DNA of 64,000 nt, taken from Pseudobutyrivibrio sp. (GTDB lineage: Bacteria > Bacillota > Clostridia > Lachnospirales > Lachnospiraceae). This document shows positions 12,083 to 18,965 of this stretch, piece by piece. Position 1 is the first letter of the stretch. The number at the start of each line of letters is the position of its first letter. The translations under genes were made by a program, and so were the position numbers. The notes under the pieces are model-generated. The model saw only the letters and a program-made list of their open reading frames with translations, had not been told where the DNA came from and did no database searches. The stretch lies in contig JAIKWH010000062.1 of assembly GCA_024684955.1 (NCBI GenBank), forward strand, positions 25,239-89,238, read 5' to 3'.

Positions 12083-13168
12083 ATGAGACTTATTCATTGC
12101 GCAGATCTGCATTTAGATTCTAAAATGGAGAGCAACCTGGACAAAGACCAGGCAATGCTTCGCAGAAGCGAACTGACAGAGACTTTTGAGGGCATGGTGG
12201 AGTATGCAGCAAAGGAAGATGTCGGTGCCATTCTTATTTCTGGCGATTTATTTGACAAAACCCATATTAGAAAAGAAGTAAAAAAGAGAGTTGTAGCTCA
12301 GATTAATCTCCACCCAGAGATTGAGTTTTATTACCTCAAGGGCAATCACGACAAGTGCGACTTTATGGAGGAGGGGATTGATGAGATTCCTGACAATTTC
12401 CATATGTTCTCTGACCAGGCCTGGACTAGCTATGACTACAAGGGCATAGTGATAAGCGGCATGGAAATCAATGCAGATAATGTTAAGTCTATGCCTGATA
12501 GGTTGGTTTTGGATTCTAATAAATTAAACATAGTTATGCTCCACGGCCAGCAGTCTGACTACGATGGTAAGGACGGGGCTGAGATTGTAAACACCAGGGC
12601 CCTGGCAGGGAAGTTTATAGATTATCTTGCTCTGGGCCATGTTCATAAATACATATATGAAAAATTGGACGACAGGGGAGTATATTGCTACCCAGGCTGC
12701 CTGGAGGGTAGGGGTTTTGACGAGACTGGGGACAAGGGATTTGTCCTTTTAGAGATAAATGATGGAAAGATATCATCAGAGTTTATTCCTTTTGCAAAAA
12801 GAAGATTGCACGAGATTAGTGTGGATGTAAAGGCCAGCATGGACATTAATGCTGTTATAGCAAAGGCAAGGGAATTGGCCAGCGATGTGGATCCACAGGA
12901 CTTGGTAAAATTTGTTCTCCTTGGTGAGAGAGAATTAGATGATGAATTAGATATTATAAAACTTGTTCACTACTTCGAGAATAAGTTTTTCTTTGTAAAA
13001 TGTTATGACAGGACCAAGACTATTATTGACTATGATAGTTTTCTTTATGACAAGAGTCTCAAGGGAGAATTTGTCAGAATGGTCCAGGGAGAAAATCTTG
13101 ATGAGGACACTAAATCAAAGATTATCGAACTGGGAATCAAAGCCATAATGGGGGAGGATATACTATGA
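12083..13168 (+). CDS. Metallophosphoesterase, YhaO/SbcD-like nuclease subunit
   Basis: IHCADLHLDS, ISGDLFDKTH, LKGNHDKCD, ALGHVHK motifs; 4-nt overlap with SbcC/YhaN-like gene. Confidence 0.85.
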   Translation: MRLIHCADLHLDSKMESNLDKDQAMLRRSELTETFEGMVEYAAKEDVGAILISGDLFDKTHIRKEVKKRVVAQINLHPEIEFYYLKGNHDKCDFMEEGIDEIPDNFHMFSDQAWTSYDYKGIVISGMEINADNVKSMPDRLVLDSNKLNIVMLHGQQSDYDGKDGAEIVNTRALAGKFIDYLALGHVHKYIYEKLDDRGVYCYPGCLEGRGFDETGDKGFVLLEINDGKISSEFIPFAKRRLHEISVDVKASMDINAVIAKARELASDVDPQDLVKFVLLGERELDDELDIIKLVHYFENKFFFVKCYDRTKTIIDYDSFLYDKSLKGEFVRMVQGENLDEDTKSKIIELGIKAIMGEDIL

Positions 13169-15843
13169 GACTGGTTTCGTGCTACATAGCCCATTTTGGA
13201 AAAATTGAAAACTTTTCTTATGATTTTAGTGAGGGATTTAATGCCATTTTGCAGGAGAATGGTTGGGGTAAAACTACCTTTTCTGTATTTATAAAGTCCA
13301 TGTTTTATGGCATGGAATATTCTCCAAACACCAAGAAAAAACTGTTGGATAGAAACCACTACATGCCATGGAATGGTTCTGTGTGTGGGGGCAATATTAT
13401 CTTTGCCACAAAGGACAAGGTATATAGACTAGAGAGGACCTTTGGAAAGACAGACAAGGATGATACCTTTGCCCTATATGACAATATCACTGGATTAAAT
13501 TCAGATGATTACACAGATAATATTGGGGAGGAACTCTTTAAGGTAGACAGGGATTCCTTTGAAAAATCTGTCTACATTCCTCAACTTTCACTGGATACAG
13601 GAATGACAGATTCTCTTAATGCCAAGATGGGTAATCTGGTTTCTGCCAAGGACGACATTAGCAATTTTGATATAGCCCTTAAGTCTATAAAGGATGCAAA
13701 GGGAGATTACACCAGGTCCAGCAAGATTAATCCGGGCAAACTCCAGGCGATTAAAAAAGAAATTGGCAAGTGCAAGGATGAATACAGCAGACTGCCTAGT
13801 ATAGTAGAAAGTTTTGAGGCCATGTCTTGTTTGGTAGAAGAAAAGCAGGAGCAGCTGGAAAAACTTACAGAAAAAAAGAACCAACTGATGGAGCAAATTC
13901 AAATCCAGAGCAAGAAGGAGCAGGAACTTGGAGCCTACAGGGCCCACAAGGATACTCTTTTAAAGGAGCAGGAAACTCTGTCAGCCCTTGACGATTTCTT
14001 TGCAGCAGGTGTACCTGATGATGAAGAAATGGCAATGCTTGAAAACACGGACAGGGACCTAGAGGTTAGTGAAAGGACCTTAAAGGCCCTGGAGGAGGAG
14101 ATAAAAAGGGTCGGTGCCGTTGTTACTGAGCCATTTCAGATGGGAGTGCCTGAGGACAGTGATTTTGCCAACTGGAATAGGATGGCATCAAGCCTGGCAG
14201 AACTAAGGGCCAAGGCTGAGCATTCCAAACTTTCTGAGGATGCCCAAAAGCAGATGGCAGAATTAAAATTCTTCTTTAAAAAGAAGATGCCAATGGAGGA
14301 TGAATTATCTGATATTGAGCAAAAGACCAGGGAGATAACAGGCTTGGAGGCCAGGGTGTCTCAAAGCAACGACAGGCTAATTTCTCTAAATGCTGAAAAG
14401 GCAGCTAATGAAAAAATCAAAAAGGGAGCGGGCATCAGCGTTTGGCACGTATTTGGTGGGGCTTTACTTATAATCTTTATTTTGGCAGGTGCCATATTTA
14501 GCAAGTATATAAGGCAGGAGATTGGCCAGATAGTTGAGGTGGTATGCCTCTTTGGTGGCCTGGCTGACATGATACTTTTGATTGTATTGTCCAGAAGGTC
14601 TTATATAACAAACATTAATGCTGCCATGGAATATGAGGACAGGATTGAGGAGGCTGAGGATGAGTTAAACATCCTAAAGGAACAACTGGCTACAATAAAG
14701 GCTCAGTGTGATGAATTCTTGGCAAACTTCCTATTGACCAGGGCAGATAGTATGCAGGAGAATGTGTACGAAATCCGTAGAAAACTGGATAGGTACAACC
14801 ACCTATTGGAGGAGGACAACAAACGCCACGAGGAGGCCGCAGATACCTTTGATGAGTTGGCAGATATGCAGTTGGAACTTTACACAAAGATTCAGCCATA
14901 TGCCACGGCCTACGGGGTCAACCTCTATGAGGATGGGGATGAATACAATTTCCTCAACAGGTTGAAAAAGGATGCCGACCTCTATGCTAAATATTTAGAG
15001 AGCACAGAGGAAATAGGAATCCAAAAGAAAAAAATTAGTGAAATGACCAAGGCCTTGGACGATGTTTTGGTTAGATATCCTATAAACCCAGTTTTGGACA
15101 GGTCTGATAAAATCGGTGAGATAAGCCAAAACAGAGGCAAATATAATGCCATTACTGAGAGAATCAAAGAAATTGAAGCAGGCATAAAAGACTTTGAGAA
15201 AAACTACAATGTAGGGGACGAAATAGAATCTGTAGATGATTTGCAAAAGAGACAGAATGAATTAGATGAGCAAATCATGGAATTAAATGAGCAGATTCTC
15301 AAGGAAAAGGAAAATCTCAGTGCAGCAGGTTCAACCATTGAAGGCCTAAGTGATATTGCCGAACAACTGGATAGGCTCACTGAGCAGGAAAGGGAATACA
15401 AGAAAAAGGCTGAGTTGCTAAATATGACTGAGGATTACTTGCAAAAGGCAAGGGAGAGTTTCTTGTCAAAGTATATGAAGCCTTTGCAGACAGGTCTCCA
15501 CAAATATTTAGGACTTATTGATAGTCCTAATGGCACCAGTTCTGGATACGCCATAGAAGACTTTGAGTTGGATATGGATTTGAATATAAAACTGTCCTAT
15601 GCAGGCTCTTCAAAGACTTCTGATTATCTGTCACAAGGATATCAGGATTTGGTGGCTCTTTGCTCTAGACTTGCACTGGTAGACGTGCTCTACTCAGATG
15701 AAAAGCCTATTTTGATTTTAGATGACCCATTTACCAATCTGGACCATAAAAAAATCGAGGAAGCCCTCAAACTTTTGAATAAGATTTCAAAAGATAGGCA
15801 GATTATATATTTCACCTGCCACGATAGTAGACTTGTAAATTAG
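13165..15843 (+). CDS. AAA ATPase with coiled coil, YhaN/SbcE-like, internal TM pair
   Basis: NGWGKTTFSVFIKSMFYG (Walker A), LSQGYQDLVALCSRLALVD, ILILDDPFTNLD (Walker B), long coiled coil with mid-protein hydrophobic segments. Confidence 0.85.
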   Translation: MRLVSCYIAHFGKIENFSYDFSEGFNAILQENGWGKTTFSVFIKSMFYGMEYSPNTKKKLLDRNHYMPWNGSVCGGNIIFATKDKVYRLERTFGKTDKDDTFALYDNITGLNSDDYTDNIGEELFKVDRDSFEKSVYIPQLSLDTGMTDSLNAKMGNLVSAKDDISNFDIALKSIKDAKGDYTRSSKINPGKLQAIKKEIGKCKDEYSRLPSIVESFEAMSCLVEEKQEQLEKLTEKKNQLMEQIQIQSKKEQELGAYRAHKDTLLKEQETLSALDDFFAAGVPDDEEMAMLENTDRDLEVSERTLKALEEEIKRVGAVVTEPFQMGVPEDSDFANWNRMASSLAELRAKAEHSKLSEDAQKQMAELKFFFKKKMPMEDELSDIEQKTREITGLEARVSQSNDRLISLNAEKAANEKIKKGAGISVWHVFGGALLIIFILAGAIFSKYIRQEIGQIVEVVCLFGGLADMILLIVLSRRSYITNINAAMEYEDRIEEAEDELNILKEQLATIKAQCDEFLANFLLTRADSMQENVYEIRRKLDRYNHLLEEDNKRHEEAADTFDELADMQLELYTKIQPYATAYGVNLYEDGDEYNFLNRLKKDADLYAKYLESTEEIGIQKKKISEMTKALDDVLVRYPINPVLDRSDKIGEISQNRGKYNAITERIKEIEAGIKDFEKNYNVGDEIESVDDLQKRQNELDEQIMELNEQILKEKENLSAAGSTIEGLSDIAEQLDRLTEQEREYKKKAELLNMTEDYLQKARESFLSKYMKPLQTGLHKYLGLIDSPNGTSSGYAIEDFELDMDLNIKLSYAGSSKTSDYLSQGYQDLVALCSRLALVDVLYSDEKPILILDDPFTNLDHKKIEEALKLLNKISKDRQIIYFTCHDSRLVN

Positions 15844-16176: not shown

Positions 16177-17472
16177 CTAATTGTTGGCAAAGATTTGTTC
16201 CTTGAAAAAATCTCCCCTTTGCTCAAAGTTTTTGAAAGGTCCGTAAGAGGCTGCAGCAGGGGATAGTAAAACGGCACTGCCCTCTTTTGCATTTGCAAGA
16301 ACAAAGGAACAAACTCCTGCCAAGTCCGGAATGTAAGTGACCCTTGCCATAAATGCCTTGTCAGCCTTTTTTTGTAGTTTGTCATATAATAATTTGCCAC
16401 TGTCATACATGAGGCAAATATTGTCAAGATTGGTAGTTAGTAGGTAGTCTATAAGGGGATTGTAATCGATTCCTCTATCCATTCCACCTAAAATAATAGT
16501 GCCAGTGTTGGAAATAGCCTTTATAGCAGAGATGGCTGATTCAACAGTGGTGGAAATGGAGTCGTCATAGTAGTCTACTCCATTTTTATTTCCTATAAAT
16601 TCAAGCCTGTGAGCAAGGGTTTTGAAAGTGCAGATACCCTTGATAAAGTCCTGGTCTGATATCCCAAAATTTTGGCACACATCATAGACGAAGGCCGCAT
16701 TGAGAAGGTTGTGGCTGCCACGAAGTTTTGCTCCATCCAGTTCATCAAAAGAAGTAAATGGCAGGTCGGTGATAGAAACCTCTGTAATGTCTGCCTGGCA
16801 ATCTCCCTCCCTTGGTAAAAAGTCAGGATTGCAATATAACTTATCTTGCTTTTTTTGGTTTCTATAAAGGTTTTGCTTTGCCCACCAATATTTCTCCACA
16901 CTGCCATAGTGGTCTAAGTGGTCCTCGTAGAGATTTAGGAAGATGGCATATTTTGGAGAATAATGGGCATATTCTAACTGGTGGCATGACAATTCAAATA
17001 CCACCAGGGTATCCTCTTTAATCTGATCACATAGGTCCAGGATAGGGATTCCTATGTTACCTCCGAAAATGGCAGGCTTTCCACTAGTTTGAAGTATATG
17101 ATATAAAAGTGAAGAAGTTGTGGATTTGCCCTTGGTGCCGGTAATTCCTATAGTCTGCTTGCCATACACTTGCAAGAACAAGTCGGCCTGGCAGGTGATA
17201 AGACAAGAGTATTCATTAATTGGGCAAGGCAAAACAATGCCTGGACTTTTAAACACCACATCATATTCATTTAAAACATCTAGATAATTAGGGCCACAAA
17301 TCAAGTGGTGGCCCATAGCCAGATCGCCTGTAATTTCCTTGGCATCTGCAATATCAAGGCAGGCATATCCGCCCACTTCATCCACAAGCCTAAAAGAAGA
17401 CTGGCCTTCCCGTCCAAATCCGAGGATAAGGACTTTTTTATTAATAACAAGATTTTTAATAGTTGCTTTCAT
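16177..17472 (-). CDS. murD: UDP-N-acetylmuramoyl-L-alanine:glutamate ligase, MurD family (candidate MurD2)
   Basis: GITGTKGKSTTSSLLYHIL, NLYEDHLDHYGS, DDSISTTVESAISAI; 1-nt overlap (TAATG) with upstream MurL-like gene. Confidence 0.9.
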   Translation of the reverse strand: MKATIKNLVINKKVLILGFGREGQSSFRLVDEVGGYACLDIADAKEITGDLAMGHHLICGPNYLDVLNEYDVVFKSPGIVLPCPINEYSCLITCQADLFLQVYGKQTIGITGTKGKSTTSSLLYHILQTSGKPAIFGGNIGIPILDLCDQIKEDTLVVFELSCHQLEYAHYSPKYAIFLNLYEDHLDHYGSVEKYWWAKQNLYRNQKKQDKLYCNPDFLPREGDCQADITEVSITDLPFTSFDELDGAKLRGSHNLLNAAFVYDVCQNFGISDQDFIKGICTFKTLAHRLEFIGNKNGVDYYDDSISTTVESAISAIKAISNTGTIILGGMDRGIDYNPLIDYLLTTNLDNICLMYDSGKLLYDKLQKKADKAFMARVTYIPDLAGVCSFVLANAKEGSAVLLSPAAASYGPFKNFEQRGDFFKEQIFANN

Positions 17473-18878
17473 TATTTTGTAATAGCCTCGTATAAAATAT
17501 CTTTAAAGAAGTCAAAGAGGGCATGCTCATCCAAGAATAAGGTTTTGTAAGAACTAAAGGATGGGGCCTCCACATTGGCCTTTTTATAGTGGTCTAAAAG
17601 AAGGGGCAATCCTATGCCATTTTTTTCATAAAGACCGATAGTGTATGTCAGGGCGGCATTTACCTCAAAACGGCTGCCTACACACTCAAATGGCTTTTCT
17701 GGCAAGATGCCGCAGAGCTTATCAAAGTCCTCCATCAGGGTCTCATCCTCAAACAGCCTCTTGTTAAAGATGGCGTCCAATTCATTAAGAGAAAGGTAAG
17801 GAGACAGGATAATATAAACAAAGAGGCACTTTGGACAGTGACCACACCAGATGTCCTGCTTGCTGCCTACGTTGCAACTTTTAAATACTCTGTGGTAGGC
17901 CTTAAACCTGGAGAATAGCATTGCAATCTGCAACTCCGAAATAGGACGGAGGAATGAGAAGTAATAAACACCAGAGTGAAGGTATTTCTCCTCGTATTCT
18001 CTAAAATCAGACTCAAACTCAAAGGACTTTGAGTACTGGTGGTTTACATAGGAATCTAAAACGGTAGATTCATTGGCAGAATTTTCATTTGAAAGGGCAA
18101 CGAAACTAATGCCATTTATGTATCCTGTAATAACAGTAGAAAATGCCACCAGGGCGGAGAATGGTGTGTGACCATTTAAATAGCCCTTGGAATTAAGCTC
18201 TAACATGTTTTTATCAAGGCTGCGGCTGGCGTAAATTGTCTTATCTTTGAGGCCTGCTGTAATAACAGTCTCTTCAGTGGCGCCCCTTGAATTGATAATG
18301 TAGCAGTATCTGTCAGTCTTTTCCTCCAAAAGAGAGATGGTGACAACAGAATCTTTGCCCCCGCCAACAGGAATGAGGACCTCTGGTCTTTGTCCTATGG
18401 TGGGCTCCTTGTATGGCAGAACTGGACTATCCGCTGTAGGGATGGCAGTTTCTGGAGAAGTTATGGTCATAAAGTCATCGATATTTTCATTGATGCCATT
18501 GGTGTAATAGAATTCTCCAAGGCCCTTGAAATAAAGTTTTTTCCACCAGGCAATCTGATGATCATTTAACTTCCTTTTTAGAATGTGGACATTGGGAGGG
18601 CAGGCAATTTTCCAATAACTGACAAGCTCTACCATGCCCAGAGAAAATACCATCTCATCGATTATCTCAGGGGAGAGGTCATAGCCACTTTCCTTGATTT
18701 TGCTGATGTGCCACTTTGGATTAAATGAGGCCAGGCCATTGATTTCAAAATCGTAACTAATATCAATGCCATCAGGGCCTAATTGATAGGAGTAGCCATT
18801 GTATGTAAAATCAGGGAAATCCCTGCGACAGTTTTCATAAAAACTTTGTCTATCCATAAAAATATCCTTTATAATCAA
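17472..18878 (-). CDS. murL: MurL-like UDP-MurNAc-L-Ala-L-Glu epimerase
   Basis: VPVGGGKDSVVTISLLEE nucleotide-binding loop, NVGSKQDIWCGHCPKCLFVYIILSP Cys motif, size about 468 aa, coupled to murD. Family assigned by recall. Confidence 0.75.
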   Translation of the reverse strand: MIIKDIFMDRQSFYENCRRDFPDFTYNGYSYQLGPDGIDISYDFEINGLASFNPKWHISKIKESGYDLSPEIIDEMVFSLGMVELVSYWKIACPPNVHILKRKLNDHQIAWWKKLYFKGLGEFYYTNGINENIDDFMTITSPETAIPTADSPVLPYKEPTIGQRPEVLIPVGGGKDSVVTISLLEEKTDRYCYIINSRGATEETVITAGLKDKTIYASRSLDKNMLELNSKGYLNGHTPFSALVAFSTVITGYINGISFVALSNENSANESTVLDSYVNHQYSKSFEFESDFREYEEKYLHSGVYYFSFLRPISELQIAMLFSRFKAYHRVFKSCNVGSKQDIWCGHCPKCLFVYIILSPYLSLNELDAIFNKRLFEDETLMEDFDKLCGILPEKPFECVGSRFEVNAALTYTIGLYEKNGIGLPLLLDHYKKANVEAPSFSSYKTLFLDEHALFDFFKDILYEAITK

Positions 18879-18965
18879 ATCATAAACTCTAGTAAAAATA
18901 ACATAGAAAGTATATCACAAAAAGCAAGAGGAAACATTGCTTAAAATGTGGAAAAGGGAGAGCCT

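Follow-up and report, generated by a model that had tools for sequence, protein, structure and literature searches.

The window, a 64,000-nucleotide stretch of a Pseudobutyrivibrio genome, encodes a homologue of the epimerase MurL together with a MurD2-type ligase, and this gene pair is very probably the sole route by which D-Glu enters the peptidoglycan of this Butyrivibrio-related gut bacterium. L-Glu would be attached first and then flipped, so that the usual glutamate racemase is bypassed. MurL would invert the terminal L-Glu to D-Glu in one direction, with consumption of ATP and release of AMP. Both reactions, ligation by MurD2 and epimerization by MurL, are known for homologues (PMC8788868, PMC5808125), and we infer that the window enzymes catalyze them. 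Our analysis supports, at the level of sequence, the first-pass annotation of the two genes as a racemase-independent route to D-Glu. The pathway itself is known and has been placed in Proteobacteria and rare actinobacteria; its distribution in Clostridia is not in the two reviews that we consulted (PMC8788868, PMC5808125). Literature searches for MurL in Clostridia or Ruminococcus returned nothing relevant, and databases or subscription papers may already assign it.

The murL homologue and its gene neighborhood

The murL homologue (positions 17472–18857) and the gene for the 431-residue murD2-type ligase (16177–17472) are both found on the minus strand, with the ligase ATG overlapping the murL stop codon. 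It had been noted that a protein with GGGKDS and WCGHCPKC motifs sits directly upstream of a MurD-family ligase with a TAATG overlap; both minus-strand reading frames are open, and motifs and overlap are as described. Only the proposed TTG start at 18878 is doubtful, as it probably lies seven codons too early: MurL more likely starts at ATG 18857, which we prefer because a likely ribosome-binding site (AAAGGA, 18865–18870, minus strand) precedes this ATG by seven bases and because homologue alignments begin at that methionine. The murL/murD2-type junction reads ...ACAAAATAATGAAAGCA, and in the junction letters AAATAATGAAA the TAA stop of the first gene and the ATG start of the second have one base in common. 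The PP-loop motif GGGKDS corresponds to residues 165–170 of the 461-residue form of MurL (18348–18365, minus strand), and the four-cysteine motif C328-x9-C338-x2-C341-x2-C344, comparable in spacing to that of Escherichia coli QueC, maps to 17826–17876 on the same strand, the last base of WCGHCPKC being at 17826.

The probable transcription unit has a third gene, which starts 15 bases after the end of the ligase gene (16161–15874, minus strand) and encodes a 95-residue Cys4-ribbon protein with no known role in the MurL-MurD2 pathway. It weakly resembles TIGR03826 (YvyF; 29.6 bits, cut-off 124), a flagellar-region protein. A gene for a WYL-domain regulator at 18948 is divergent from murL. Elsewhere in the window (12083–15843) we located metallophosphatase and SMC-like ATPase genes, which are SbcD/SbcC-like and overlap by a few bases.

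The upstream protein matches the NCBIfam MurL model NF041275 with E = 2.3e-67 and 227 bits over model positions 62–391 (330 positions), far below a cut-off of 700 bits that was set for Xanthomonadales; an actinobacterial homologue from Pseudonocardia scores 323 bits and likewise stays under it. Homology to MurL, proposed earlier from the motifs, is borne out by this profile match and by direct comparison with a plasmid-encoded protein of Xanthomonas sacchari annotated as MurL (34% identity over 333 residues), whose gene likewise overlaps murD in the same order. A Pfam scan of the protein returned no family above cut-off. The GGGKDS PP-loop and all four cysteines are invariant in an alignment of 48 MurL sequences. 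When X. sacchari, actinobacterial, and other clostridial members are aligned with the window protein, the four cysteines, the GGG, Asp and Ser of the PP-loop, and the NHQ, KPFECVG, and SCN stretches are invariant, the Pseudonocardia homologue reading GGGRDS in place of GGGKDS.

Every one of the 27 genus loci examined keeps murL paired with murD, as do 75 of the 80 loci that we took from species genomes. The five others (L172, L182, L185, L197, and L202) contain no MurD homologue within the fetched flank of up to 3 kb, and their MurD2 must be encoded elsewhere. The Pseudonocardia alni plasmid pPaSha1 (L210, 3764–5164) carries the MurL homologue scoring 323 bits with no ligase annotated nearby, perhaps with another function. 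Because of these five loci and the ligase-less plasmid, homology to MurL alone is no proof of the pathway, and it is the pairing and the absence of MurI that do most of the work in our assignment.

Specificity residues of the ligase

The ligase scores 283 bits against the TIGR01087 murD model (cut-off 212) and contains the catalytic Lys115, His183, and Lys198 of MurD. X. sacchari MurD2 also passes this equivalog cut-off, and genome annotation can thus label MurD2-type ligases as D-glutamate ligases. We compared four aligned positions, numbered 182, 319, 348, and 416 as in E. coli MurD, all encoded on the minus strand. Ile306 (16555–16557; Lys-319 in E. coli) and Arg333 (16474–16476; Lys-348 in E. 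coli, Arg-358 in X. oryzae MurD2) are of the MurD2 type. Tyr410 (16243–16245) corresponds to Leu-416 in E. coli, to Phe-435 in X. oryzae MurD2 and to Trp in racemase-using relatives. The canonical ligases of these relatives, which are racemase-using Lachnospiraceae, carry Lys319, Lys348, and Trp416, in place of which the window ligase has Ile, Arg, and Tyr. X. sacchari MurD2 has Ile, Arg, and Phe at the same positions, and Ile319 and Arg348 together with Tyr or Phe at 416 are found in 74 of 74 readable MurL-linked ligases. In a midpoint-rooted tree, in which E. coli sits on a long branch, a node with 100/100 support separates the MurL-linked ligases from the canonical ligases of relatives. The canonical murD genes that we read adjoin an mraY-like or ftsW-like gene, as judged by eye.

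The fourth position is in the canonical state: Asp184 (16921–16923) corresponds to Asp-182 in E. coli, whereas MurD2 of X. oryzae (Glu-197) and of X. sacchari has Glu. Glu is present at this position in 58 of 74 linked ligases, and Asp in the window ligase and in every genus member read. Published mutants bear on three of the four sites: the stereospecificity of X. oryzae MurD2 is changed by R358K and likewise by E197D, and E. coli MurD takes L-Glu once it carries K319T (PMC8788868). As R358K and K319T alter the chirality preference, two of the MurD2-type positions in the window ligase are relevant to it. Glu-197 is a specificity determinant in one enzyme and may not be needed family-wide, so we call the protein MurD2-type rather than MurD2. 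With one specificity residue in the canonical state, strict use of L-Glu by the window ligase is a prediction.

The effect of E197D, taken together with the Asp found throughout the genus, means that the window ligase could accept D-Glu too. A permissive enzyme that takes both L- and D-Glu, with MurL as the chief source of the D-form beside others, is possible in our estimate, if on balance doubtful. The mixed set Asp184/Ile306/Arg333/Tyr410 points in this direction, as does the slight acceptance of L-Glu by Streptococcus mutans MurD, in which the 348 position is likewise Arg (PMC8788868). We found no free D-Glu source in the own genome, however, and dual specificity would therefore go unused unless D-Glu is imported or recycled. 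Permissiveness is compatible with MurL-MurD2 as the route to D-Glu, and the two readings differ only in the strictness of the ligase.

Four related Lachnospiraceae also favor a permissive ligase. Three of them (G025, G041, and G089) contain a MurD2-type ligase and no MurL, either adjoining or elsewhere by profile search, and the fourth (G086) retains just upstream of its ligase a 246-residue MurL remnant without PP-loop and cysteines. The four ligase genes are found at L205 (5940–7298), L206 (7785–9314), L207 (6961–8151), and, in G086, L208 (6721–8256). Neither MurI nor the D-amino-acid aminotransferase Dat scores over cut-off in any of these genomes, which are 92–100% complete. It is conceivable, and in our view rather improbable, that they use a third, undescribed route to D-Glu, possibly with a different post-ligation epimerase, which would make the step taken by MurL replaceable in its own right.

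Absence of MurI and distribution of the pathway

In the Pseudobutyrivibrio genome that contains the window (2.26 Mb, assembly 86% complete), the glutamate racemase (MurI) model finds no match, the window ligase is the only MurD over cut-off, and no Dat exceeds its cut-off. Dat was rejected as a source of D-Glu, the weak partial matches, mostly reading frames of ∼350 residues, being read as branched-chain aminotransferases. The named relatives at 64–67% identity are Pseudobutyrivibrio and Butyrivibrio fibrisolvens 16/4. Of 29 genomes of the genus, 21 of which are at least 90% complete, 28 contain MurL by profile search and none a MurI over cut-off, and all 29 have a single MurD over cut-off. 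Even G150, a genome in one contig that is listed as 100% complete and agrees in coordinates with B. fibrisolvens 16/4, lacks a MurI over cut-off, and the single MurL-negative genome (G164, 83% complete) contains a MurD (L068) of the same type as the window ligase. The first-pass annotation had allowed for the pathway alone or beside MurI and a second MurD; with neither found over cut-off in the own genome or across the genus, the stronger form is supported, and the MurL-MurD2-type pathway is predicted to act alone.

MurL and MurI are mutually exclusive beyond the genus. In 150 family genomes, one per genus, we found full-length MurL in 12, MurI over cut-off in 126, and both in none (p = 1.6e-11 with genera taken as independent, an assumption that goes too far given their shared ancestry). 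MurI over cut-off is likewise absent from 50 further MurL genomes of a named species collection, a set that was picked by MurL matches, may partly overlap the 150 genera, and includes Ruminococcus flavefaciens, Enterocloster, Mordavella, Oscillospiraceae, and Erysipelotrichales. Two of the 50 (G217 and G218) may be exceptions, having divergent racemase-like matches of 95 and 108 bits that cover most of the model (cut-off 147). MurL-MurD2 pairs also occur in metagenome-assembled genomes labeled Bacteroidales and Alistipes (L201 and L162), reflecting either inter-phylum transfer or binning errors. A candidate phage-borne MurL (MT836755.1, L211) was rejected, as this is an unverified scaffold and an EF-G-like reading frame points to bacterial DNA.

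A counterpoint to MurL-MurD2 as the sole route is a TIGR00035-type amino-acid racemase in the own genome (L001). This Asp/Glu racemase family match was rejected as MurI, being TIGR00035/CuyB-like instead. It could nevertheless supply D-Glu to an ordinary D-Glu ligase, leaving MurL with an unrelated job (the TIGR00035 match lies at G000:C62), and the canonical Asp184 and weak racemase-family matches in 28 of 29 genus genomes would agree with such an arrangement. We consider it very unlikely: weak matches below cut-off are also present in many MurI-positive family genomes and are thus no substitute for MurI, MurL and MurI exclude each other, and the ligase falls in the MurL-linked clade with Ile319/Arg348. 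That MurI is encoded in a portion of the genome absent from the 86% complete assembly is scarcely credible, given that none of the 29 genus genomes has it over cut-off, the one-contig genome included.

Across an entire clostridial genus of the gut and rumen, the MurL-MurD2-type route is the only one predicted, and the route is widespread in gut Clostridia, namely in Lachnospiraceae and in Oscillospiraceae/Ruminococcus flavefaciens, and also in Erysipelotrichales. MurL-MurD2 has been called a narrow-spectrum antibiotic target (PMC8788868). As the route is common in gut Clostridia, an inhibitor of MurL or MurD2 might hit common gut commensals, and MurI inhibitors might spare those that use MurL. 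Why Roseburia intestinalis lacks murI is a published puzzle (PMC7478625), to which the MurL route offers a testable answer.

Predicted MurL fold and comparison with known systems

An AlphaFold model of MurL calculated from 48 homologues (pLDDT 93) reveals a predicted PP-loop ATPase fold. Alignment with VIA-align returned clear matches to QatC (Z = 18.1, 321 residues, r.m.s.d. 3.7), QueC (Z = 13.7 and 13.1, ∼190–200 residues), and Cap9 (Z = 12.3), with other PP-loop enzymes at only 7–9, whereas the Foldseek ranking is uninformative by itself (best E = 7e-3). A sequence search of solved structures with MurL (P0001) gave no match, and a profile search of the same structures matched only the PP-loop of TtuA. 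The Pfam QueC profile matches 2 of 48 MurL members at a noise-level best E of 0.01, and MurL is thus placed in a QueC-like PP-loop class by predicted fold and Cys4 motif, with no family-level sequence match.

PP-loop enzymes adenylate their substrates and release AMP and pyrophosphate; in QueC the adenylated group is a carboxylate, and the four cysteines bind zinc. PP-loop adenylation fits the AMP release by MurL and the carboxyl-adenylate proposed by its discoverers (PMC8788868), and the predicted QueC-like PP-loop and four-cysteine motif are in keeping with this proposal. The MurL PP-loop most likely adenylates the α-carboxylate of the terminal Glu, which would acidify the α proton; after deprotonation, a proton would be added on the opposite face and the adenylate hydrolyzed. 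MurL is said to have no known conserved domains (PMC8788868, PMC5808125), which makes the predicted QueC-like fold a useful addition, and a literature search for MurL together with QueC found none.

QueC, the 7-cyano-7-deazaguanine synthase, shares the predicted PP-loop ATPase fold and in E. coli has a C188-x8-C197-x2-C200-x2-C203 motif with GCGHCAAC, compared with C328-x9-C338-x2-C341-x2-C344 and WCGHCPKC in the window MurL. MurL differs from QueC by a separate N-terminal domain, by GGGKDS in place of SGGQDS, and in substrate and outcome. QatC from the QatABCD anti-phage system is the best structural match, its N-terminal part included, but shares 8% sequence identity with MurL and is a defense protein without cell-wall context.

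The closest known system is the MurL-MurD2 pair of Xanthomonas oryzae (XOO_1319/XOO_1320; PMC8788868, PMC5808125), with a homologous epimerase and ligase. Xanthomonas and this Pseudobutyrivibrio have in common overlapping genes in the same order (in X. sacchari), the lack of a MurI over cut-off, Ile319/Arg348-type ligase residues, and a conserved PP-loop and Cys4 motif in the epimerase. The hosts differ, the pair being found here in Clostridia, which the reviews do not list (PMC8788868, PMC5808125). Sequence identity amounts to 28–34% for MurL and 27% for MurD2, and the window ligase has Asp for Glu at position 182, Ala for Pro at 414, and Tyr for Phe at 416.
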